This document shows, one piece after another, positions 20,423-56,128 of a stretch of 64,000 bases of DNA (positions are counted from its first letter, which is position 1; each line of letters opens with the position of its first letter). The stretch is from Lachnospiraceae bacterium (GTDB lineage: Bacteria > Bacillota > Clostridia > Lachnospirales > Lachnospiraceae). The position numbers and the translations under genes were made by a program. A model generated the notes under the pieces. It was not told where the DNA came from and made no database searches. It saw nothing but the letters and a program-made list of their open reading frames with translations. Location: NCBI GenBank assembly GCA_017940415.1, contig JAGAYR010000042.1:1-64000 (forward strand). The letters are read 5' to 3'.

Positions 20423-20572
20423 TTACTTTGTTTCCTTATGAAGTGTATGCTTCTTGCAAAATCTGCAATACTTCTTGATCTCCATGCGGTCAGGCATGGT
20501 CTTCTTATCCTTGGTAGTATTGTAGTTGCGCTGTTTGCACTCGGTGCAAGCAAGTGTAATCTTTGTACGCAT
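20423..20572 (-). CDS. rpmG: 50S ribosomal protein L33, zinc-ribbon form
   Basis: A 49-residue L33 that starts [17 protein letters not shown]. It keeps both cysteine pairs of the zinc ribbon (Cys9 and Cys12, then YCRFC near residues 36-39), so it is the zinc-containing C+ form. AGGAGGAACAATT precedes the ATG. It heads the rpmG-secE-nusG-rplK-rplA unit. A second L33 lacking one of these cysteines is encoded at 54442-54603. Confidence 0.95.
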
Positions 20573-46745: not shown

Positions 46746-48353
46746 TCAGCCCTGGGTTATGACAGCTATGTCATATGCGGGAAGAGTTATTTTCCCTCCT
46801 CCAAGTTTTATCTTGTCCTTGGAAGTGGTAAGTACACCGCCAAGTACGGAATAAGACGAATAATTACTTGGAATCTCTATCACTGTTTTCTCATTCGAGA
46901 AATTGATTGCGATAAGAACAGGCTCGTATCCTTCCGCTTCTTTCAGATATAGTACGTAATTATCGGAGGATGCTATAATCCCTGTGATCCGGCCTCTTGA
47001 TATGGCCGGGAAGATCCTTCTGAGTCTTATCGCCTGTCTGTAGTAATTATATATGGACAATTCGTCCTTAACCTGCTCTTCGTAGGTTCCGTATTTCATT
47101 GCAAAAGAATCCATATCCACAGGCCCGGTACACATACCTTCCGCACCGGAATCTGTGCTCCACTGCATGGGGGCACGCTTATTCTCATCCTTACCTGAGC
47201 CCTTCATTCCAAGCTCTTCACCGTAATAAACAAAGGCGCTTCCGCTCATGAGAAGATTTAATCCGCCTGCAAACTTTACTTTGCTGTCCGCATTTTCTCC
47301 GGTGTAATAACCCGCGCTTCTTCCCATGTCATGATTGGTATAGAAAGGAGCGTTGATGTAATCCGGATTGTAATCCGCATACAGATCTTCTTCCGCCATC
47401 TGCAGCATTACGAATCTTTCGGGTGATACCGTTCCTCTTACGGCATTGGCTATGGTTCCGTCGGAATCAGCAAAGGCAAAATCAAACATACTGTCCGCAC
47501 CGCTCTCATAATACCTGCAGTAATCATTCTGGGAAGCCCAGCCTTCACATACTATATACGCATCGGGATCTATACTCTTAACATCTTCCACAAATCTTCC
47601 GAGTGCGGCAGTGCTGCCTGCCGTATCATTTGTATAATAACTTGTTACCGCATCCATTCTGAAACCGTCGCAGCCTTCATTCAGCCAGAATGCCGCAATG
47701 TCTTTGAACTCCGCACGAACTTCTTCGGAGTCCAGATTAAAGTCCGGCATTCCGCTCCAGAATCTTGCTTCATAGAACCAGTCTGTTCCCGGAACCCTGC
47801 TGTATCCACCGGATTCCTTGTCCGTGAAATTATAATAATCCAAATATCTGCACTCATTCGCATCGGGCTCTTCACCGGGAGCAAGAGACTTCAGATAATC
47901 GCAGGCTTCCTTAAACCAGGGATGCTCGTTTGATGAGTGGTTCATTACCATATCATTGTAGACATTGATGTTCCTTGAATGGCATTCCGCTATAAGTGCT
48001 TCATAATCTGCCAGAGTTCCATACTCCGGATCAATATCCATATAATCCGTCACATCATATTTATGATATGTGGGAGAAGGACATATGGGGCTCAGCCATA
48101 TGGCATCAAATCCCATGTCCTCTATGTAGTTCAGTTTCGAGATAACTCCCTGCAGATCTCCTATTCCGTCTCCGTTGCTGTCGCAGTAAGAATACACGAA
48201 GACTTCGTAGACCGTCCTGTAATTGTCATCCGATGAATAAAGGTCATGTGCGTCATTAACCTTGCTCATCTGAGGAGAGCAGGCACTTAAAATGACGGAC
48301 ATGACCGTTGCAGTTAAAGCTGTTACTATTTTGTTTGATCTTAAATTACGCAT
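46746..48353 (-). CDS. Secreted GH13 alpha-amylase-family lipoprotein
   Basis: A 535-residue protein with a lipoprotein signal (lipobox LSAC at about residues 22-25). The GH13 barrel keeps GFRMDAV (nucleophile Asp), CEGWA (acid/base Glu) and the final Asp in TNHD. A short C-terminal beta domain ends it. Length and motif fit amylases and oligo-glucosidases that act on starch-type glucans outside the cell. It starts 19 bp after the ABC ATPase gene of the metal operon without a clear terminator between, but has only a poor ribosome site. Confidence 0.87.
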   Translation of the reverse strand: MRNLRSNKIVTALTATVMSVILSACSPQMSKVNDAHDLYSSDDNYRTVYEVFVYSYCDSNGDGIGDLQGVISKLNYIEDMGFDAIWLSPICPSPTYHKYDVTDYMDIDPEYGTLADYEALIAECHSRNINVYNDMVMNHSSNEHPWFKEACDYLKSLAPGEEPDANECRYLDYYNFTDKESGGYSRVPGTDWFYEARFWSGMPDFNLDSEEVRAEFKDIAAFWLNEGCDGFRMDAVTSYYTNDTAGSTAALGRFVEDVKSIDPDAYIVCEGWASQNDYCRYYESGADSMFDFAFADSDGTIANAVRGTVSPERFVMLQMAEEDLYADYNPDYINAPFYTNHDMGRSAGYYTGENADSKVKFAGGLNLLMSGSAFVYYGEELGMKGSGKDENKRAPMQWSTDSGAEGMCTGPVDMDSFAMKYGTYEEQVKDELSIYNYYRQAIRLRRIFPAISRGRITGIIASSDNYVLYLKEAEGYEPVLIAINFSNEKTVIEIPSNYSSYSVLGGVLTTSKDKIKLGGGKITLPAYDIAVITQG

Positions 48354-48372
48354 GTGGATATTTTACCACAAA

Positions 48373-49821
48373 TCACGCCCTGCAAGTAAGTTTCTCCAGA
48401 TCTACTATCCGGTCGCATAATTTATCCGCAAGCGCCATATTGTGGGTGATGACCAGAAGTCCGAGGTTCCTTCTTTTTACCTCCTCCATGAGCACTTTCC
48501 ATATCTGCGCCTGGGTTATGGCATCCAACATGGTACTCATCTCATCGGCAATGATAAGTTCAGTCCGGGGTCCCAGCACTCTCGCCACACAGAATCTCTG
48601 CAGTTCCCCGCCGGACAGTTCGTTAGGCCACCTGTCAAACCAGAGATCTTTTTTGATATATAGTCTTTCCAAAAGGCCGTCATCCGGCATATAACCTTCC
48701 GCAAGAGAATCCGATATCTTCATTCCGGGATCAAGCGCCTTTTCGGGATGCTGATATATCATCTGTATCGGGCAATATCCTTTAAGAGGAAGTTTACCGC
48801 CTTTCCAGGTCACCTCGCCCTCATCCGGCCTTTCATATCCGGAGATTATCTTGGCAAGTGTGCTCTTACCAAGTCCCGACGGCCCCACAAGACCTACAAC
48901 CTCTCCGCGTCCGATTTTAAAATTCAGTCCGCTTAATATATTCTTTCCCTTTACATACCCGAAAGAAACATCCTTGCATTCGATCAGCACATCCTGCTTT
49001 GCCTGCCGTTCCGTTCCGAAAACCTTATGATATGCATCCGCAAATCCGTTCTGCGGAAGTGCCTCCCAAAGTGCCCTCGTATATGGATGTTTAATATGGT
49101 CTCTGCCCTTTGCAAAATCTTCACTGCTCAGGATGTCCACAATCTCACCTTCGTAAAATACCGCTATGGTATCAGCATACTTTGCGGCAAGATCTATGTC
49201 GTGGGTGATCATAAGAACTGCCCTGCCCTCTTCAGTCAGAGCTTTGAAATTGTCCATGGTCTCACGGGCCAGATCTTCACTGAGCCCCGGAGTAGGTTCA
49301 TCAGCCAGAATCACCCCCGCGTCAGATGTCACGGCCGTGGCGATCAGTATCCTTCTTGCCATTCCGCCGGAAAGCTCAAACGGATACAGATTTGCAGTTT
49401 CGGGTTTAAGACCGTATCTTTCAAAAACCTCTTCCTGCTTTTCCCTGCTTCCGCGTACTCCTCTTACCTGTTTTCCCACTTTCATCAAAGGATCCAGATA
49501 AGTAAGGGACTGCGGTATCATGATAAGATCCTTACCCAGTTTTTCCCTGCGGAGCTTTTTATCCAGCACCTCTCCGTTTAACAGAATCTCTCCGCCAACT
49601 ACCGCATTTTTCGGAAGAAGCCCCAGAGCTGCGTGGGCCAGAATACTCTTTCCGCTTCCGCTTGCTCCGACGATTGCAAGCATCTCTCCTTCATGAAGAG
49701 AGATATTCATCTTTTTTATTACATCAAGTCTGACCTGCTTAAGTCCGCGGCGGTACATGTTAAAGCTTACGGACAGGTCTTTTACTTCAAGAACTGTTTT
49801 TTTCTTTTCATTCATTTCCAT
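48373..49821 (-). CDS. Fused double ABC ATPase of a Nik/Opp-type importer
   Basis: A 482-residue protein with two complete ATPase halves. The first has Walker A GASGSGKS, signature LSGGMARR and Walker B VILADEPT; the second has GPSGLGKST, LSGGELQRF and LIIADEMST. It thus replaces the separate DppD and DppF subunits. At about 240 residues per half it is compact and lacks the C-terminal oligopeptide-type extension, which is also small or missing in metal-chelate importers. A start at 49815 (third codon) is possible. It is the last gene of the transporter, after both permeases. Confidence 0.9.
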   Translation of the reverse strand: MEMNEKKKTVLEVKDLSVSFNMYRRGLKQVRLDVIKKMNISLHEGEMLAIVGASGSGKSILAHAALGLLPKNAVVGGEILLNGEVLDKKLRREKLGKDLIMIPQSLTYLDPLMKVGKQVRGVRGSREKQEEVFERYGLKPETANLYPFELSGGMARRILIATAVTSDAGVILADEPTPGLSEDLARETMDNFKALTEEGRAVLMITHDIDLAAKYADTIAVFYEGEIVDILSSEDFAKGRDHIKHPYTRALWEALPQNGFADAYHKVFGTERQAKQDVLIECKDVSFGYVKGKNILSGLNFKIGRGEVVGLVGPSGLGKSTLAKIISGYERPDEGEVTWKGGKLPLKGYCPIQMIYQHPEKALDPGMKISDSLAEGYMPDDGLLERLYIKKDLWFDRWPNELSGGELQRFCVARVLGPRTELIIADEMSTMLDAITQAQIWKVLMEEVKRRNLGLLVITHNMALADKLCDRIVDLEKLTCRA

Positions 49822-49842
49822 AACCTTAAATCCGTCACCTCT

Positions 49843-50664
49843 TTACATCTGGGCATTCACGGGATCAAGAAGCAGACGCAAGTTTTTACCCAATGCTTCA
49901 AAAAGCACAACGATAAAAAGAAGACACACCCCCGGAAACACCGCAAGCCACCACATACCGGTAGTCAGATACTGCATGGATTCCGACAAAATAATACCGA
50001 CTGCAGGCTGCTCCGCGGGAAGTCCGAATCCAAGGAATGTTATGGATGCTTCATGCATGATGGCATGAGGGAACATAAGCACAAGTCCCACCACAAACTG
50101 CGGAAATACATTGGGGATGATGTGATGTATTGCAACCCATCTTACACTGTGCCCGAATCTGTATGATGCGTGAACAAAATGAGATTCCTTGAGAGATAAG
50201 ATCTCCGCCTGAACGATACGCCCCAGACTGCACCAATGTGTCAGGATAACTCCAATAGCTACACCCCTTGCACCTTTCCCCAGAAGTATGGATATAAGTA
50301 TCAGCAGGATCAGATGAGGTATTCCCATGAACAGATCCACCATCCAGTTAAACAGTGCCATGGCTTTTCCACCGATCATTCCGGCAAAAGTTCCCAGAAA
50401 CAATCCGATAACCGACGAAAAGATCGATGCTAGGAGTCCGATATAGATACTTACCGAAAGACCTTTGACGGTTCTGCAAAACATATCGCGTCCCATCCAG
50501 TCGGTTCCGAAAAAATGCGAAACGGAGGGTCCCAGATTTTTATCCGCAAATTTCGGTGCATAGCTTTCGGGATCCATCACGCTTCCGGCTATGGTGATAA
50601 GTGCGATCAAAAAGACGGTTACGCATATGATGATAAAAGTCCTTGTTCTTCGGTTTCCTTTCAT
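49843..50664 (-). CDS. Nik/Dpp-type ABC permease, C subunit
   Basis: A 273-residue inner-membrane permease with about six helices and the family EAA-type loop EILSLKESHFVHASYRFG. An early HFFGTDWMGRDMF matches the conserved FGTDxxGRD of DppC/NikC/OppC. It overlaps the preceding permease by four bases (ATGA) and is followed 21 bp later by the ATPase gene. Confidence 0.92.
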   Translation of the reverse strand: MKGNRRTRTFIIICVTVFLIALITIAGSVMDPESYAPKFADKNLGPSVSHFFGTDWMGRDMFCRTVKGLSVSIYIGLLASIFSSVIGLFLGTFAGMIGGKAMALFNWMVDLFMGIPHLILLILISILLGKGARGVAIGVILTHWCSLGRIVQAEILSLKESHFVHASYRFGHSVRWVAIHHIIPNVFPQFVVGLVLMFPHAIMHEASITFLGFGLPAEQPAVGIILSESMQYLTTGMWWLAVFPGVCLLFIVVLFEALGKNLRLLLDPVNAQM

Positions 50665-51632
50665 CTGACCGCCCCCTCTCTGATACGGGGATCCGCCACC
50701 GTATACAATATATTTGCGATGAGATTTCCTCCGAATACGAAAAGGGATGAAAACAGTGCAATACCAAGAAACAGCGGTATATCACCTTTAAGCGCGGACT
50801 GAACCGTTGCATTACCCAAACCCGGATATGTAAATACCGTCTCAGCCAAAACAGAACCTCCGAACAGTTCGCTTATGGCTCCGAACTGAAGAGTGATAAA
50901 GGGCAGCATGATATTTCTGAGACCGTGCCTGATCACAAAAGTCCACTTTCCCTCTCCTCGGGAAGTTGCAAAAAGAGCATAGTCACTGTCCAGTGCCTGT
51001 CTCATTTTTTCTGCTGTCTGTAGTGTGATTTTGGATACACCGGTAAGTCCCAGAGTAAGTGCGGGAAGTATCATATGATGTATCCGCTGCGCAAGCGTTG
51101 CCTCATCAAAAGGGACACCTACAGGAGATGCAAGCCCCATGGGAAGAAGTCTGAACTTAACAGAAAACAGGAGAAGCAAAAGCATTCCCACCCAGAATGC
51201 GGGTGAAGATTCAAGTGCAAGACAATATGTTCTGATCACCTTATCTGCAAAAGTGTCCCTGTAAACGGCCATGACAATCCCGAGAAGAAGCCCCATCACT
51301 CCGCTTATGATCCAGGAGGCGGTCATAAGAGCGAGTGATAATCTGAACCTCTCTCCGATAACCTGCGTAACAGGTTTTCTGTAGATCATGGACGTTCCCA
51401 TATCGCCGCGCAGGAAATTGGTGATCCATTTAAAATATCTGGTAACGGGGGGCTCATTAAGTCCCCAGTATTCTTCGATCCTTTCTCTTTGATCGTTCGT
51501 CACACCGGCTTCACCGACATAGCTTTCTACGGCATCTATCGGTGAAACCTCAACCATTGCGAATGTAACGATGCTGACTGTGATAAGAAGAAGGATCGCT
51601 TTTAAAATACTAGCGATTATTTTCTTATACAT
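50661..51632 (-). CDS. Nik/Dpp-type ABC permease, B subunit
   Basis: A 323-residue permease with a first helix near residues 10-30, the family GLNEPPVTRY..W motif before the second, and the DYALFATSRGEGKWTFVIRHGLRN loop that contacts the ATPase. It starts 6 bp after the binding-protein gene. NikB-type and peptide-type members cannot be told apart by eye. Confidence 0.92.
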   Translation of the reverse strand: MYKKIIASILKAILLLITVSIVTFAMVEVSPIDAVESYVGEAGVTNDQRERIEEYWGLNEPPVTRYFKWITNFLRGDMGTSMIYRKPVTQVIGERFRLSLALMTASWIISGVMGLLLGIVMAVYRDTFADKVIRTYCLALESSPAFWVGMLLLLLFSVKFRLLPMGLASPVGVPFDEATLAQRIHHMILPALTLGLTGVSKITLQTAEKMRQALDSDYALFATSRGEGKWTFVIRHGLRNIMLPFITLQFGAISELFGGSVLAETVFTYPGLGNATVQSALKGDIPLFLGIALFSSLFVFGGNLIANILYTVADPRIREGAVR

Positions 51633-51638
51633 AGGATC

Positions 51639-53306
51639 TTATTCCCACTTCCAGTCACAGATGTTACTGAGTACTACTTGTCCGTTTGCGCAGTGAGGCT
51701 GAACGGGCTGCTCACCGATGTTAAGTCCGTCACGTACAAAGTAGCAGTGATCCGCACGTACATACCACGCTGCGGGAACATCACCTATAAGACTTGCGCC
51801 GGATTCACCATCCCACTGTGCAAGCTTGTAGTATTTATAGACATCCTCCATGTTATCCGAAGCCATGGCAAGTGACATGTACTCATCCACAGAAGGATTT
51901 GAATAGAAACTTGAATTACTCCAGCCCGCACCTCTTGTGGCGGTTGAATTCATAAGATAAAACTCATTGGGTGTATAGTCCCCTCTTCCGAACATGTAAG
52001 GGGTAGAGAACATTCTGGGTGAGATATCGGAATTTGCGGCGCCTTCGGGAAGGATTGAAATTCCGAGAGCCTTTGCCTGTTCCGCAAGTGCCATAGCCAT
52101 AGACTGACGGTTTGCGTTATTGGAAGTATATAGAAGCGTAAACTCCGCTTTTACTCCGTTCTTCTCACGGATTCCGTCACCGTCTTCATCGATCCATCCG
52201 CCCTCTTCAAGCATATCTATTGCAACATCAAGTCCGGAATTGGAATCATCAAGCGCAGTCTCCTCATTGAACCAGGGCATAGTATCACACATGGAATAAG
52301 ACGCGATACCGTATCCGTTGAACACATCCCTGATAAGAGCTTCACGATCTATTCCCACAGCAAGAGCACGGCGGATAACCACATCACCGGTTACATTGTT
52401 TCCGATGGGGCGTCCGTCTTCGGATGTCTTTCCTTCATCATATGTAGTGGGGAAAATAATACCGTAATTATCTATGGATTCGATGGGAACCATACTGTAT
52501 CCGTCGATGGTCTGAGTAGCAAGATTCTGATTTGTATAGATGATATCTACATCACCACGCTGAGCAGCCATAAACGAAGCATCATCATCCATAAAGAGGA
52601 GAATGATCTTCTTGATCTGAGGCTCCTTGCCATAGTAGTATTCGTTGTACTCCCAGACGCACTGCTGGCCTTTCTCCCATTCGGTCATCTTAAAAGGGCC
52701 TGAACCTATGGGGTTCTCACCATAGTTATCATCGTAGTATTTTTCGGGAACGATACCGACCTTATAGGTCATATAGAGAAATGTATAATCAGGCTCGGAG
52801 AGATGGAAAACGACAGTAGTGTCATCAATAGTCTCCGCATCTTTGATATTGCTGAGATCAAGACTGGTTCCTCCATCACGGACAGCCTCATAAGTAAATT
52901 CAACATCGCTGGCAAGAACCTTTTCTCCGTTGCTGTAATAAGCATCGTCACGTATCACAAAAGTCCAGTCAAGTCCGTCTTCGCTTACATGATAATCCGT
53001 TGTCAGATCGTTAGTGATCTCGCCGCCGTAAGCTTTGGTAAGAGTGCTCTGAAGAATGGGATCGAATCTCTGACCGTATCCGGTTATGGGATTCCAGCCT
53101 GAGCTTGATTCGGAATTAACGGCTACAACCACAGTATCCTTAACCGCACCGGATTCTGCAGGGGCAGCTCCTTCTCCGAAAACCACAACATCACTTACGC
53201 TTCCGTCTGCGCCTGCTCCCGCATTCGAAGCAGTATTTCCGCAACCTGAAAGCGCACTTAAACAAAGCGCCATCACTGCCGCCATGATCTTCTTATTCAA
53301 TTTCAT
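51639..53306 (-). CDS. Family 5 extracellular solute-binding lipoprotein (Nik/Opp-type)
   Basis: A 555-residue lipoprotein (lipobox LSGC at about residue 20) of the SBP_bac_5 family, with the typical DWTFVIRDDAYYSNGEKVLASDVEFTYEA region and PIGSGPFKMTEW. The start is the ATG at 53304-53306 (MKLNKKIMAAVM), preceded by ACGGAGATAG; it lies 11 bp after the COG0523 gene stop. The family binds peptides, nickel or metallophore complexes. Its place after ZnuA, L33 and COG0523 genes suggests a metal or metal-chelate ligand; this is inference. Confidence 0.88.
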   Translation of the reverse strand: MKLNKKIMAAVMALCLSALSGCGNTASNAGAGADGSVSDVVVFGEGAAPAESGAVKDTVVVAVNSESSSGWNPITGYGQRFDPILQSTLTKAYGGEITNDLTTDYHVSEDGLDWTFVIRDDAYYSNGEKVLASDVEFTYEAVRDGGTSLDLSNIKDAETIDDTTVVFHLSEPDYTFLYMTYKVGIVPEKYYDDNYGENPIGSGPFKMTEWEKGQQCVWEYNEYYYGKEPQIKKIILLFMDDDASFMAAQRGDVDIIYTNQNLATQTIDGYSMVPIESIDNYGIIFPTTYDEGKTSEDGRPIGNNVTGDVVIRRALAVGIDREALIRDVFNGYGIASYSMCDTMPWFNEETALDDSNSGLDVAIDMLEEGGWIDEDGDGIREKNGVKAEFTLLYTSNNANRQSMAMALAEQAKALGISILPEGAANSDISPRMFSTPYMFGRGDYTPNEFYLMNSTATRGAGWSNSSFYSNPSVDEYMSLAMASDNMEDVYKYYKLAQWDGESGASLIGDVPAAWYVRADHCYFVRDGLNIGEQPVQPHCANGQVVLSNICDWKWE

Positions 53307-53317
53307 TTCTATCTCCG

Positions 53318-54433
53318 TTACGCGCCTAAGCACGCATTAAGTGTTTTTATTATATGTTCTTTGTCGTGACCTTTTCCGATGAAAACGATCTGGTTCATTC
53401 TGTCTCCGTACTTTTCATCCCACTCTTCCAAAACCTCGGGATAATACTCAAAGACTTCCTGTTTATCCTTTTCCTCGAAAGCGTCAACCCAGTTTGAGAA
53501 TTCCGAAACGGAAGCGTTTCTTCCTGCCTGCTCGAAGAGTTGAACGTGCACGGAATCATCGGAAAACCATACGTAACCCTTGGCACGGATAAGTTCACCG
53601 GGATAATCCTTCTCCAGAAACCCCATGAACCTTTCCCTGTCAAAAGGTCTTCTCTCCTCATATACAAATGAAGAGATACCGTATTCTTCCTCACATTCTT
53701 CACCGTCTTCTTTTCTCTTAAGAGCTTTCTGGATGGTAGAAGAATTCATTGCTTTATCGTAATCGAATTTCTCACCGTTGAAGATGGCATCCTGACTCAC
53801 CCGGCCCTTGATACATCTGATGATATCTGCCTCAGGCTGAAAATGTCTGATGGTTTTCTCCACTTCATCGAGCTGCGCATCTTCCAGAAGATCGCACTTG
53901 TTCAGAAGTATTGTGTTACAGAATTCAATCTGATCAAGGACAAGGTTGATGATATCGGGATCCTCATCATCCTGTTCGCCGGCTTCCTTTATCTCTTCAA
54001 GGAACTCACGGTTAATGCGGTCCGCATCCACCACCGTAACTATTTTGGAGAGATAAAAGTCTGCCTTTTTATTCATTTCCTCATAAGAAAGAAATGCTTC
54101 AGCTATCGATCCGGGGTCACTGATACCGGAAGCCTCTACAAAGATAGCTTCGATACCTTTCGCACGGGAGATCTTTTCAACCTCCTGCATAAACTCATCG
54201 CGAAGCGTACAGCAGATACAGCCGTTTGTCATCTCAATGACTCCGGTATCCGCTGACATTATTTTTCCCTTTTTCACAAGCTGCGCATCGATATTGATGC
54301 TGCCCATATCATTGACGATAAGGGCTATCTTTCTTTGCTCCTGACGGAGCATCTCATTTAAAAACGTAGTCTTACCCGATCCGAGATAACCCGTAATGAG
54401 AAGCACGGGTATCTTTTTCTTACCAAGTGCCAT
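53318..54433 (-). CDS. COG0523 (CobW/ZigA-type) G3E GTPase, putative zinc chaperone
   Basis: A 371-residue GTPase of the G3E family that delivers metal to client proteins. Walker A GYLGSGKTT is at about residues 14-22, the metal-binding GCICC motif with CTLRDEF near 70, the SGISDPG switch, and NKCD for guanine recognition; a CobW_C domain covers about 255-365. The start is the ATG at 54431-54433, since GAGGAGGAGT lies just before it. It comes 8 bp after a cysteine-deficient L33 gene and downstream of a ZnuA-type gene, a context typical of zinc starvation. Confidence 0.92.
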   Translation of the reverse strand: MALGKKKIPVLLITGYLGSGKTTFLNEMLRQEQRKIALIVNDMGSINIDAQLVKKGKIMSADTGVIEMTNGCICCTLRDEFMQEVEKISRAKGIEAIFVEASGISDPGSIAEAFLSYEEMNKKADFYLSKIVTVVDADRINREFLEEIKEAGEQDDEDPDIINLVLDQIEFCNTILLNKCDLLEDAQLDEVEKTIRHFQPEADIIRCIKGRVSQDAIFNGEKFDYDKAMNSSTIQKALKRKEDGEECEEEYGISSFVYEERRPFDRERFMGFLEKDYPGELIRAKGYVWFSDDSVHVQLFEQAGRNASVSEFSNWVDAFEEKDKQEVFEYYPEVLEEWDEKYGDRMNQIVFIGKGHDKEHIIKTLNACLGA

Positions 54434-54441
54434 ACTCCTCC

Positions 54442-54603
54442 TCACTTAACTTCCTTGTGAAGGGTATGTCTTCTGAGTCTCGGGCAGTACTTTTTTATCT
54501 CAAGTCTCTCAGGGTGCGTCTTTTTATTCTTGGTGACGGTGTAATTTCTGTCACCGCACTCAGTGCACGCAAGAGTGACCGTAACTCTCTGACCTGTAGC
54601 CAT
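54442..54603 (-). CDS. rpmG: 50S ribosomal protein L33, zinc-ribbon-deficient form
   Basis: A 53-residue second L33 starting [16 protein letters not shown]. It has the first cysteine pair (Cys13 and Cys16) but the second is CPRL in place of CxxC, so a four-cysteine zinc site cannot form. Such C-minus L33 proteins replace the zinc form when zinc is short in several Firmicutes. It lies 20 bp after the ZnuA gene stop and 8 bp before the COG0523 gene, so it is in their transcript. The ribosome site is weak (GAGGTAAATATGG-like). Confidence 0.92.
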
Positions 54604-54623
54604 ATTTACCTCACAATAATCCG

Positions 54624-55667
54624 TCAGTTAAGAGCCTGCTTAAGAACCTCCAGGTTTGAAGTCATTACGGAAAGGTATGTGACTCCGTTCTTAACATCTG
54701 CGGATGTGGTTGCCTGCATTGAATCAAGTGCATAGATTTCCTGGTTCTTGTCCGCGGTATTATCACGGATGGTCTGCGCGATCTTGCCGTCACTGTTTTC
54801 GATGGTAAGGATTGCACCGAGTCCCAGCTCGTCTATCTTGTTTGCCAGGAAAACAACGGTCTCAAAGCTTGCTTCGGTCTCTGCAGAGCAGCCTACGAAT
54901 GCAGCATAATAATCTAAGTTGTAATCATCTGTAAGATATCTGAAAGGGAATCTGTCACCGAATAAAACGGTATCGAATGCAGCACCTGCGACAGCTTCTT
55001 TATACTGCTCATCAAGAGCGGAAAGCTGTGCTTTGTATGCATCGTTGTTAGCCTGATATACTGAAGCGTTATCGGGATCTGCCTTTGCGAGGCCGTCAGT
55101 TATCGCATCGCAAAGAACGGAAGCGTTTCTGAGGGAAAGCCATACATGCTCGTCGTACTCTACTTCCTCTTCTTCATGATCATGGTCATGATCTTCATCC
55201 TCGTCATGATCCCCGTCTTCATCGTGATGATCATGATCGTGCTCATCCTCTTCCTGCATACCCTCAACAACTTCTTCCTCTTTTACGTCGTCTCCGAGAA
55301 CCTCAAGAAGATTGATAACTATCATATCGGGATTAACAGACTCTTTAAGAGCATCATCTACCCAGCCGTCGGATTCACCGCCCACATATATAAAGATGTC
55401 GCAATCGGATATCTTGAGAATGTCGGAAGCAACAGGCTGGTAACTGTGGAGATCAACTCCGTTATCAAGGAGCATGGTAACTTCGGCATCCCCTGCTTTA
55501 TCTCCCAGGATCTGCATAACCCAGTCATACTCGGGGAAGATGGTGGTAACAATTGAAAGCTTATCGGAGCCCGAAGAAGGTGCGGAACCCGATCCCTGTC
55601 CCGCGCAGGCAGTAAGCATAACAGCGGCGCAAAGTACAGCCGCAATCTTTGTAAGCATTTTTTTCAT
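54624..55667 (-). CDS. znuA: ZnuA-type zinc-binding lipoprotein with His/Asp-rich loop
   Basis: A 347-residue cluster A-1 substrate-binding protein. The lipobox LTAC is at about residues 18-21, the metal-ligand motifs DLHSYQP (His) and DEHVWLS (His) are intact, and the loop between them (about residues 145-172) is a string of His, Asp and Glu. The third site reads [10 protein letters not shown], where many ZnuA have a His. Such loops occur in zinc, not manganese, binding proteins. No ZnuB or ZnuC gene is in the window, so it must use an unlinked permease or the adjacent Nik-type one. AGGAGGAATTTAAATT-like ribosome site before the ATG. Confidence 0.9.
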
Positions 55668-55719
55668 AATTTAAATTCCTCCATGGACACAAAACATTTA
55701 TAGTCTGACCCGGGCGGGA

Positions 55720-56031
55720 TCAATTATTCATCCGGATCTTTTCTTCAACAATTGAAAGCCCCGTGACACCGGTCATTCCAGTCTTCACGGATATGGCCAT
55801 AATTATATAAACTAACGAAGCCATGCACACAAAGGGCAGCACGCTTCCTATGCGGTTCAGAACTGCCTCACAAACCTCAAGGGTGGCACATACGGGACAA
55901 TCCTCTTCATGACATTCATGAGTGCTCTCAGCCGCAATATAATAAGCGGACATAAGAGTAAGGATCAGCAACAGTGCACTGACAGGGAGGGAAACAAGCG
56001 CTGTGAACTTATTTATTTTTTTATCAGTCAC
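55720..56031 (-). CDS. Small Cys/His-rich membrane protein of the zinc operon
   Basis: A 103-residue protein with two helices (about residues 11-34 and 68-90). Between them is a loop with HECHEEDCPVC, a likely metal site facing outside the cell. The start is GTG at 56029-56031, since CCGAGGAGG lies 8 bp before it. It is the first gene of the operon and is followed 52 bp later by znuA. The protein is not a recognised family; a zinc-sensing or zinc-passing role is only inferred. Confidence 0.7.
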   Translation of the reverse strand: MTDKKINKFTALVSLPVSALLLILTLMSAYYIAAESTHECHEEDCPVCATLEVCEAVLNRIGSVLPFVCMASLVYIIMAISVKTGMTGVTGLSIVEEKIRMNN

Positions 56032-56063
56032 TGTTACTGCCTCCTCGGTTAGTGATACAAAAC

Positions 56064-56078
56064 TGAAAACCATTCCCA
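56064..56078 (-). promoter_or_regulatory. Second Fur/Zur-like operator, downstream of the -10 box
   Basis: TGGGAATGGTTTTCA on the minus strand matches the upstream palindrome at 12 of 15 positions. It starts right after the -10 box, over the expected transcription start, where a bound repressor would block initiation. Confidence 0.45.
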
Positions 56079-56107
56079 ATTTTAACCGTGAGGTCCCGTT
56101 CTGTCAA
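56079..56107 (-). promoter_or_regulatory. Promoter of the zinc operon
   Basis: A perfect TTGACA (56102-56107) and TAAAAT (56079-56084) are exactly 17 bp apart on the minus strand, 48 bp before the GTG start of the first gene. Confidence 0.8.
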
Positions 56108-56113
56108 TAGAAA

Positions 56114-56128
56114 TGAAAATCATTTTCA
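56114..56128. promoter_or_regulatory. Fur-family (probably Zur) operator
   Basis: TGAAAATCATTTTCA is a perfect 7-1-7 inverted repeat, the layout of Fur, Zur and PerR boxes (compare TGATAATnATTATCA). It ends 6 bp upstream of the -35 box. Zinc-linked genes downstream make Zur the likeliest regulator, but the sequence alone does not separate Zur from Fur. Confidence 0.6.

Follow-up and report, generated by a model that had tools for sequence, protein, structure and literature searches.

A predicted zinc-starvation operon and its promoter

The 64,000-nucleotide stretch analysed here (hereafter the window; positions 1 to 64,000 of contig JAGAYR010000042.1, assembly GCA_017940415.1) comes from a member of the Lachnospiraceae and carries an apparent operon in which genes linked to zinc limitation are followed by those of a peptide/nickel-type importer. 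Gene families were called by Pfam and NCBIfam profile scans. Reading of the open reading frames (ORFs) places eight genes on the minus strand from 56031 to 48373 (Table 1): a small membrane protein (sMP), a ZnuA-type lipoprotein, a ribosomal protein L33, a COG0523 GTPase, a solute-binding protein (SBP), two permeases and a fused ATPase. A first-pass annotation of the window had described eight codirectional genes no more than 52 bp apart, and this description stands; the gaps in gene order are 52, 20, 8, 11, 6, -4 (an overlap) and 21 bp. Because the assembly (2.69 Mb) is 84% complete, absences from this genome are soft statements throughout, and "only" is to be read as the only one found.

Table 1. 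Genes and regulatory features of the predicted operon (positions in the window).
Feature	Position	Strand	Remarks
Zur-box-like operator 1 (TGAAAATGATTTTCA)	56114..56128		exact TGRRAAYNRTTYYCA match, just upstream of the -35 element
Sigma-70-type promoter TTGACA-17-TAAAAT	56079..56107	-	11/12 consensus positions
Zur-box-like operator 2 (TGGGAATGGTTTTCA)	56064..56078		exact TGRRAAYNRTTYYCA match, abuts the -10 element
sMP, small membrane protein	55720..56031	-	GTG start; two long helices; E35-H38-C40-C45-C48 loop
ZnuA-type zinc-binding lipoprotein, His/Asp/Glu-rich loop	54624..55667	-	PF01297, 223 bits
Ribosomal protein L33, ribbon minus one Cys (CTEC...CPRL)	54442..54603	-	PF00471, 88.5 bits
COG0523 GTPase, ZigA-like, CICC motif	53318..54433	-	PF02492 and PF07683
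YntA-type solute-binding lipoprotein	51639..53306	-	SBP_bac_5, 232.8 bits
Permease 1, NikB/OppB type	50661..51632	-	PF00528 (BPD_transp_1)
Permease 2, NikC/OppC type	49843..50664	-	PF00528 (BPD_transp_1)
Fused NikD+NikE-type ATPase, 482 aa	48373..49821	-	two ABC_tran stretches, both nucleotide-binding motif sets

The promoter listed in Table 1 is the best of nine promoter-like matches between the upstream gene and sMP, a total that is itself not above chance (13.3 in shuffled sequence). On either side of it, spaced by 50 bp, lie the two operators, which are the only exact copies of TGRRAAYNRTTYYCA in the window. When the window was simulated 300 times with a first-order Markov model, exact copies averaged 0.037 and no simulation gave two or more. 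Across the whole assembly the exact motif is found at six places: the two window operators, one site before a zur gene on another contig (C28:10689-10703, with a one-mismatch copy 48 bp closer to zur), and three sites inside ORFs read as an acetyltransferase, ribosomal protein L2 and a TrkA-type protein. Allowing one mismatch yielded 53 forward places genome-wide, as compared to 25 for a reversed control pattern; the sole one-mismatch place examined for its context (C5:28031) lies inside an aminotransferase-like ORF.

The pattern was drawn by eye from upstream regions of the genus, including those later scored, so its fit in those regions is partly by construction; the genome-wide count and the Markov simulation are the more independent tests. 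Among the zur upstream regions of the genus, 16 of 22 carry the motif exactly and 20 of 22 with at most one mismatch, and two exact sites are present in three of the five znuA/sMP promoters at split loci (those of the window, G001 and G017). Zur-type operators thus appear to flank the operon promoter, with a motif shared with zur and znu promoters, and the first-pass proposal of a zinc-starvation operon gains by this: on the strength of its two exact sites and of the motif that it shares with zur-znuCB, the locus looks like a Zur operon. Control by iron through Fur was set aside, if not completely: the palindromes look Fur-like by eye, but the motif is common to the zur-znuCB and znuA promoters. 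That no second FUR-family gene was found in the contigs of the genome was also counted against it.

A probable unlinked partner for ZnuA

The znuC and znuB genes lie on a different contig from the window (G000:C28:8583-10165), directly behind a FUR-family gene with which they form one operon (G000:C28:8583-10771). Among ABC-3 permease matches in the genome, this znuB scores highest (156.8 bits); a weaker match on C33 (43.3 bits) looks on reading like a permease of the FecCD type that comes with an SBP and an ATPase of its own. The earlier remark that a ZnuB/ZnuC pair is missing is correct for the window locus and incorrect for the genome, in which a search for znuBC and Zur recovered znuC-znuB in an operon with the only FUR-family gene. 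We name this regulator Zur by its gene context. Neither a separate Fur nor a PerR was seen in the 84% complete genome.

A single PF01297 match was found in the genome (cut-off 29 bits), namely the window ZnuA, whose nearest solved chains are the zinc-binding AdcA (7jj8/7jj9) and YcdH (2o1e). In three close relatives (G001, G017 and G026) the syntenic znuA is kept, the importer is absent (no match to its SBP at E up to 1e-20) and zur-znuC-znuB lies elsewhere (L237, L236 and L238). Because these importer-free relatives retain a lone znuA together with an unlinked zur-znuCB, ZnuA most likely works with the unlinked ZnuBC, which was one of the possibilities raised at first pass. The idea of a Nik/Opp-type importer standing in for ZnuBC is not supported, since znuBC is present and the three relatives have znuA without the importer.

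The ancestral operon, its split and a deletion scar

Comparison of gene order across the family reveals a zur-sMP-znuA-(L33)-(zigA)-znuC-znuB operon elsewhere that is split in the window genome. The order zur-sMP-znuA-znuC-znuB occurs in genus and family relatives (e.g., L095, L096, L098 and L104), and in G089 (L075) zur-sMP-znuA-L33-zigA-znuC-znuB forms a single run. In 7 of the 31 genus genomes (the window genome G000, G001, G008, G017, G020, G026 and G028), znuA and zur are on different contigs. The split is firm for G001, because that assembly has only nine contigs, and G015, in which the two genes are likewise on different contigs, was left out of the count because its znuA sits with another znuC-znuB. 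The window operon accordingly reads as the putative znuA half of a split Zur-type regulon.

In G001, G017 and G026, the znuA locus is bordered by the same pair of genes as its window counterpart, and the loci differ in what they have retained. In G001 the end of L33 leads into the ribosome-binding site, ATG and opening codons of zigA; over the stretch that begins where L33 ends and reaches base 10 of zigA, 22 of 23 bases match the window. This zigA start runs directly into a 30-base end encoding DLEKLSRVS-stop, as compared to DLEKLTCRA-stop at the end of the window ATPase (21 of 30 bases identical). Among 2,559 TGA-ending 30-mers of the window this was the best match, with the next best at 17. 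This scar shows that the block from zigA through the ATPase was once present in G001 and was then deleted, and it speaks against a chimeric assembly as the source of the gene order in the window. The zigA-importer block stood in the operon of the common ancestor of the window genome and G001. Recent insertion and chimerism, both of which were considered, are ruled out by the scar; GC content at third codon positions also argues against recent insertion (0.45-0.49 in the block, matching 0.47-0.49 in its flanks).

The other two loci have lost further parts. Alignment of G017 with the window breaks off within the promoter, at 56053, and picks up again one base later at 55746, in the last sMP codons: sMP was deleted there. 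No L33 match was found in the G017 znuA locus. In G026 the locus consists of sMP-znuA alone. The operon is undergoing trimming in these relatives.

With regard to the surroundings of the operon, its upstream neighbor was named as an alpha-galactosidase-like gene by reading the translation. On the other side, a TGTGRTARAATA-like element directly 5' of the ATG of an amylase-like lipoprotein gene (window about 48346-48373) is common to G001 and G017 (L094 and L102); by reading, the lipoprotein gene may be transcribed from a promoter of its own, with only a very short leader.

The small membrane protein, L33 and the COG0523 GTPase

sMP has no Pfam or NCBIfam match. In 14 aligned sequences, the window's included, E35, H38, C40, C45, C48, K98 and R100 are invariant, giving a loop pattern of E-x2-H-x-C ... 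C-x2-C and a KVRLNN-like tail. A structural model (mean pLDDT 76.8, pTM 0.49) places the Cys/His loop between two helices, 2-34 and 46-90. In relatives from the genus and the family (L075, L095, L104, L007, L234 and others), the gene is placed between zur and znuA. This position, together with the metal-type motif, suggests that sMP may be a membrane zinc-binding helper, and we consider it a candidate for a new zinc-handling family.

Two L33 matches above the family cut-off were found in the genome, both of them in the window. The second (20423-20572) has all four ribbon cysteines (CTEC...CRFC) and lies beside ORFs read by translation as secE, nusG and rplK. The operon copy had been described as cysteine-deficient; it keeps three of the four ribbon cysteines, so that the description holds in a qualified sense. 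All six further L33s identified next to znuA or zigA in relatives are of the CPRL form.

The COG0523 GTPase matches cobW (166.8 bits) and CobW_C (83.2 bits). Its best NCBIfam model is ZigA (NF038288) at 324.9 bits, below the cut-off of 600, and we therefore regard the protein as ZigA-like and not as ZigA by that model. Relatives with at least 55% identity are present in 5 of the 31 genus genomes, including the window's own; at the family level, 28 of 397 genomes have one at E up to 1e-40. In a tree of these proteins, members from zur operons form no single clade. At four other loci in the genus (L038, L039, L040 and L041, from G020, G021, G015 and G024), a FUR-family gene 24-33% like Zur was observed directly before another ZigA-like COG0523 gene; the exact Zur motif is absent at all four.

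A YntABCDE-type importer with altered residues

The importer SBP is related to YntA by sequence and by fold, its best fold match being YntA with Ni(L-His)2. We assign the importer to the YntABCDE type, a family that is nickel-type by fold and gene neighbors. SBP matches were found in 62 of 397 family genomes, the window's own included, and within the genus in 1 of 31 (E up to 1e-20), which is the window genome. Fifty relatives were examined for their neighborhoods: 40 wide neighborhoods, mostly the best-scoring of the 61 other SBP-matched family genomes, and 10 from a search of the order, in which 33 other genomes matched (7 already among the 40, 10 added and 16 left out). The best three to five candidates per genome were scored in both searches, some loci end near the importer at a contig end, and in the ten order-search loci ORFs of at least 60 aa were compared, so that L33 is too small to be seen there. 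Nickel-cofactor (lar) genes lie near 17 of these 50 relatives, and nikR adjoins the importer in three of eight plasmid relatives. Within the window no larB, larC or larE was found, and LarC had no match in the genome, for which urease, [NiFe]-hydrogenase, carbon monoxide dehydrogenase (CODH) and nikR were not searched for; a plain nickel reading is weakened to that extent.

The permeases are 45-55% identical to the full-length permeases adjoining SBP relatives. The ATPases are separate genes in the relatives read and a single 482-aa protein in the window, with Walker A motifs at 52 and 313 and LSGG motifs at 150 and 402. This fused protein does not have the Cys cluster that, by a simple pattern, ends the NikD-type subunit in 30 of 40 relatives.

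We compared the window SBP to 77 other aligned rows, six of which are repeat loci. H520 and H538 are kept, each being present in 75 of the 77, and a cysteine directly follows H538 in the window protein. Several otherwise conserved positions are substituted: R281Y (the original residue is conserved in 71/77), W425N (72/77), D426S (75/77), H536Q (68/77), H541N (67/77) and W493Y (77/77). YntA retains arginine and tryptophan at the positions equivalent to 281 and 425. The substitutions point to a modified chelate pocket, which the positions concerned would presumably line. The window SBP also forms a long end branch (1.99, as compared to a median of 0.3), and its tree grouping with L198/L205 (98/76) was not used as a relationship because of this long-branch warning.

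Two Ynt-like importers on Trichormus variabilis plasmids (L220 and L221) adjoin TonB siderophore receptors, and one is also beside a non-ribosomal peptide synthetase gene, which suggests that some Ynt-like members may import metallophores.

Weighing the explanations

The explanation that we favor, with a probability of roughly 0.6, is a split Zur-controlled zinc-starvation regulon in which a Ynt-derived importer provides a further way in for metal, most likely as a zinc chelate. With ample zinc, Zur, whose gene shares an operon with znuC and znuB on another contig, would occupy both operators and block transcription, repressing the window operon and zur-znuCB together. As zinc falls, the operon would be transcribed. 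ZnuA would capture zinc and pass it to the unlinked ZnuBC, while sMP, at the membrane, may bind zinc or relay it and so aid its capture or delivery. The zinc-poor L33 would replace the four-cysteine L33, freeing zinc, and the COG0523 GTPase would allocate metal inside the cell. The YntABCDE-derived importer, with its fused ATPases and altered pocket, would bring in a second divalent-metal source, probably zinc or a zinc substitute; a zinc chelate is our best guess because of the Zur-type operators and the altered residues of the window copy.

A Zur-controlled COG0523 gene with a "Ni/dipeptide" importer is already known from Paracoccus denitrificans, of which the window operon is a variant. According to the portions of that report available to us, pden1338-1344 is Zur-regulated, rises about 8-16-fold in the zinc-depleted column of a table, has Zur motifs with Zur binding to the pden1341 promoter, and has an importer whose cargo is stated as unassigned (PMC5387054). 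Like the window operon, it combines a COG0523 gene with components of a Ni/dipeptide importer of cluster C type, namely an SBP, two permeases and a single listed ATPase gene, a likeness of gene content and description and not of compared sequences. It differs in coming from a proteobacterium, in having two extra hypothetical genes and a separate Zur motif before the SBP, and, in those portions, in having neither znuA nor L33. In Group B Streptococcus, the available part of a further report lists SAK_0252-0255 as a peptide/opine/nickel-type SBP, two permeases and one ATPase gene, mutants of which were under-represented under calprotectin; the substrate is unknown there, and no zinc operon is reported in that part (PMC7667036). 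This likeness, too, is one of description and not of compared sequences. Compared to YntABCDE of Yersinia, whose relatives read here have separate ATPases, often nickel gene neighbors and mostly Arg/Trp at 281/425, the window copy sits in a Zur-type operon and has its ATPases fused. With the operon of its own family it shares the zur, sMP, znuA, L33 and zigA families and the operator motif common to the genus and G089, and it differs from that single unit in being split and in having the importer appended. Among the papers listed in literature searches, as judged by titles and the beginnings of abstracts, no Lachnospiraceae Zur operon with such an importer was found.

Several observations weigh against the favored explanation. 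The C28 FUR-family protein falls below every NCBIfam cut-off and scores 61 bits as Fur and 35 bits as Zur, and the exact site 5' of its gene overlaps the final codons of the preceding ORF. Two of the 22 zur promoters (L164 and L165) are without the motif at up to one mismatch, two of the five split-locus znuA promoters (L097 and L103) carry none, and an exact copy lies within 6 kb of zigA in 3 of 29 ZigA-relative loci (L007, L075 and L089), which are mostly of other genera; for L141 the upstream region covered was 150 bases. Neither znuA nor zigA was found beside the importer in any of the 50 relatives examined, the importer's family is nickel-type, and the zigA-importer block is dispensable, as G001 deleted it. 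Moreover, H536 and H541 have no equivalents in YntA either, although it binds Ni(L-His)2, and tyrosine at 281 recurs in L142 and L144; because of this, the altered residues do not name the cargo.

One alternative is that the importer still carries nickel, or cobalt, under Zur control, such that another divalent metal stands in for zinc and is placed by the COG0523 GTPase. The YntA fold, the lar and nikR neighbors of the relatives and the retention of H520 and H538 would all fit such a role, and in Pseudomonas aeruginosa, as far as the available parts of two reports go, cobalt is taken up through Zur-regulated operons under zinc starvation (PMC13083405, PMC11481552). We consider it unlikely, given that the genome yielded no LarC match (the search did not extend to urease, [NiFe]-hydrogenase and CODH) and that R281, W425 and D426, conserved in most relatives, are altered in the window SBP. 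Less likely again is that the importer is a passenger, an ordinary peptide or nickel importer that came to lie behind L33-zigA and is transcribed simply by readthrough from the Zur promoter. SBP_bac_5 importers do have varied cargos, and both the deletion in G001 and the presence of the SBP in a single genus genome would suit a passenger. The tight packing after zigA (11, 6, -4 and 21 bp), the motifs present in both ATPase halves and the parallel arrangement in the available account of P. denitrificans (PMC5387054) speak for a functional part of the operon instead.

The first-pass annotation had also raised an unusual pairing of an A-1 binding protein with a Nik-type permease, in which ZnuA would serve the importer directly as a chimeric A-1/cluster C system. 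In its favor, the two share an operon and no znuBC adjoins them. It was rejected and we hold it to be highly improbable, as znuBC exists unlinked with zur, the importer has its own full SBP, and the importer-free G001, G017 and G026 retain the syntenic znuA.

Implications

Under the favored explanation of a split Zur-controlled regulon, the apparently incomplete ZnuABC system is explained as a split operon. A more specific history can be proposed tentatively, at somewhat less than even odds: a YntABCDE-type nickel importer was captured by a Zur operon, had its ATPases fused and its pocket reshaped, and now imports zinc as a small chelate beside ZnuABC. If true, this would be a case in nature of a cluster C importer switching from one metal to another, and it could be traced through the relatives that represent the nickel version and through the G001 scar. 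The locus also points to an unnamed zinc-loop membrane protein conserved in the zur operons of the family. With nickel-type relatives, altered residues and Zur-type operators now brought together, a comparison of the SBPs could show whether such importers have switched to zinc.

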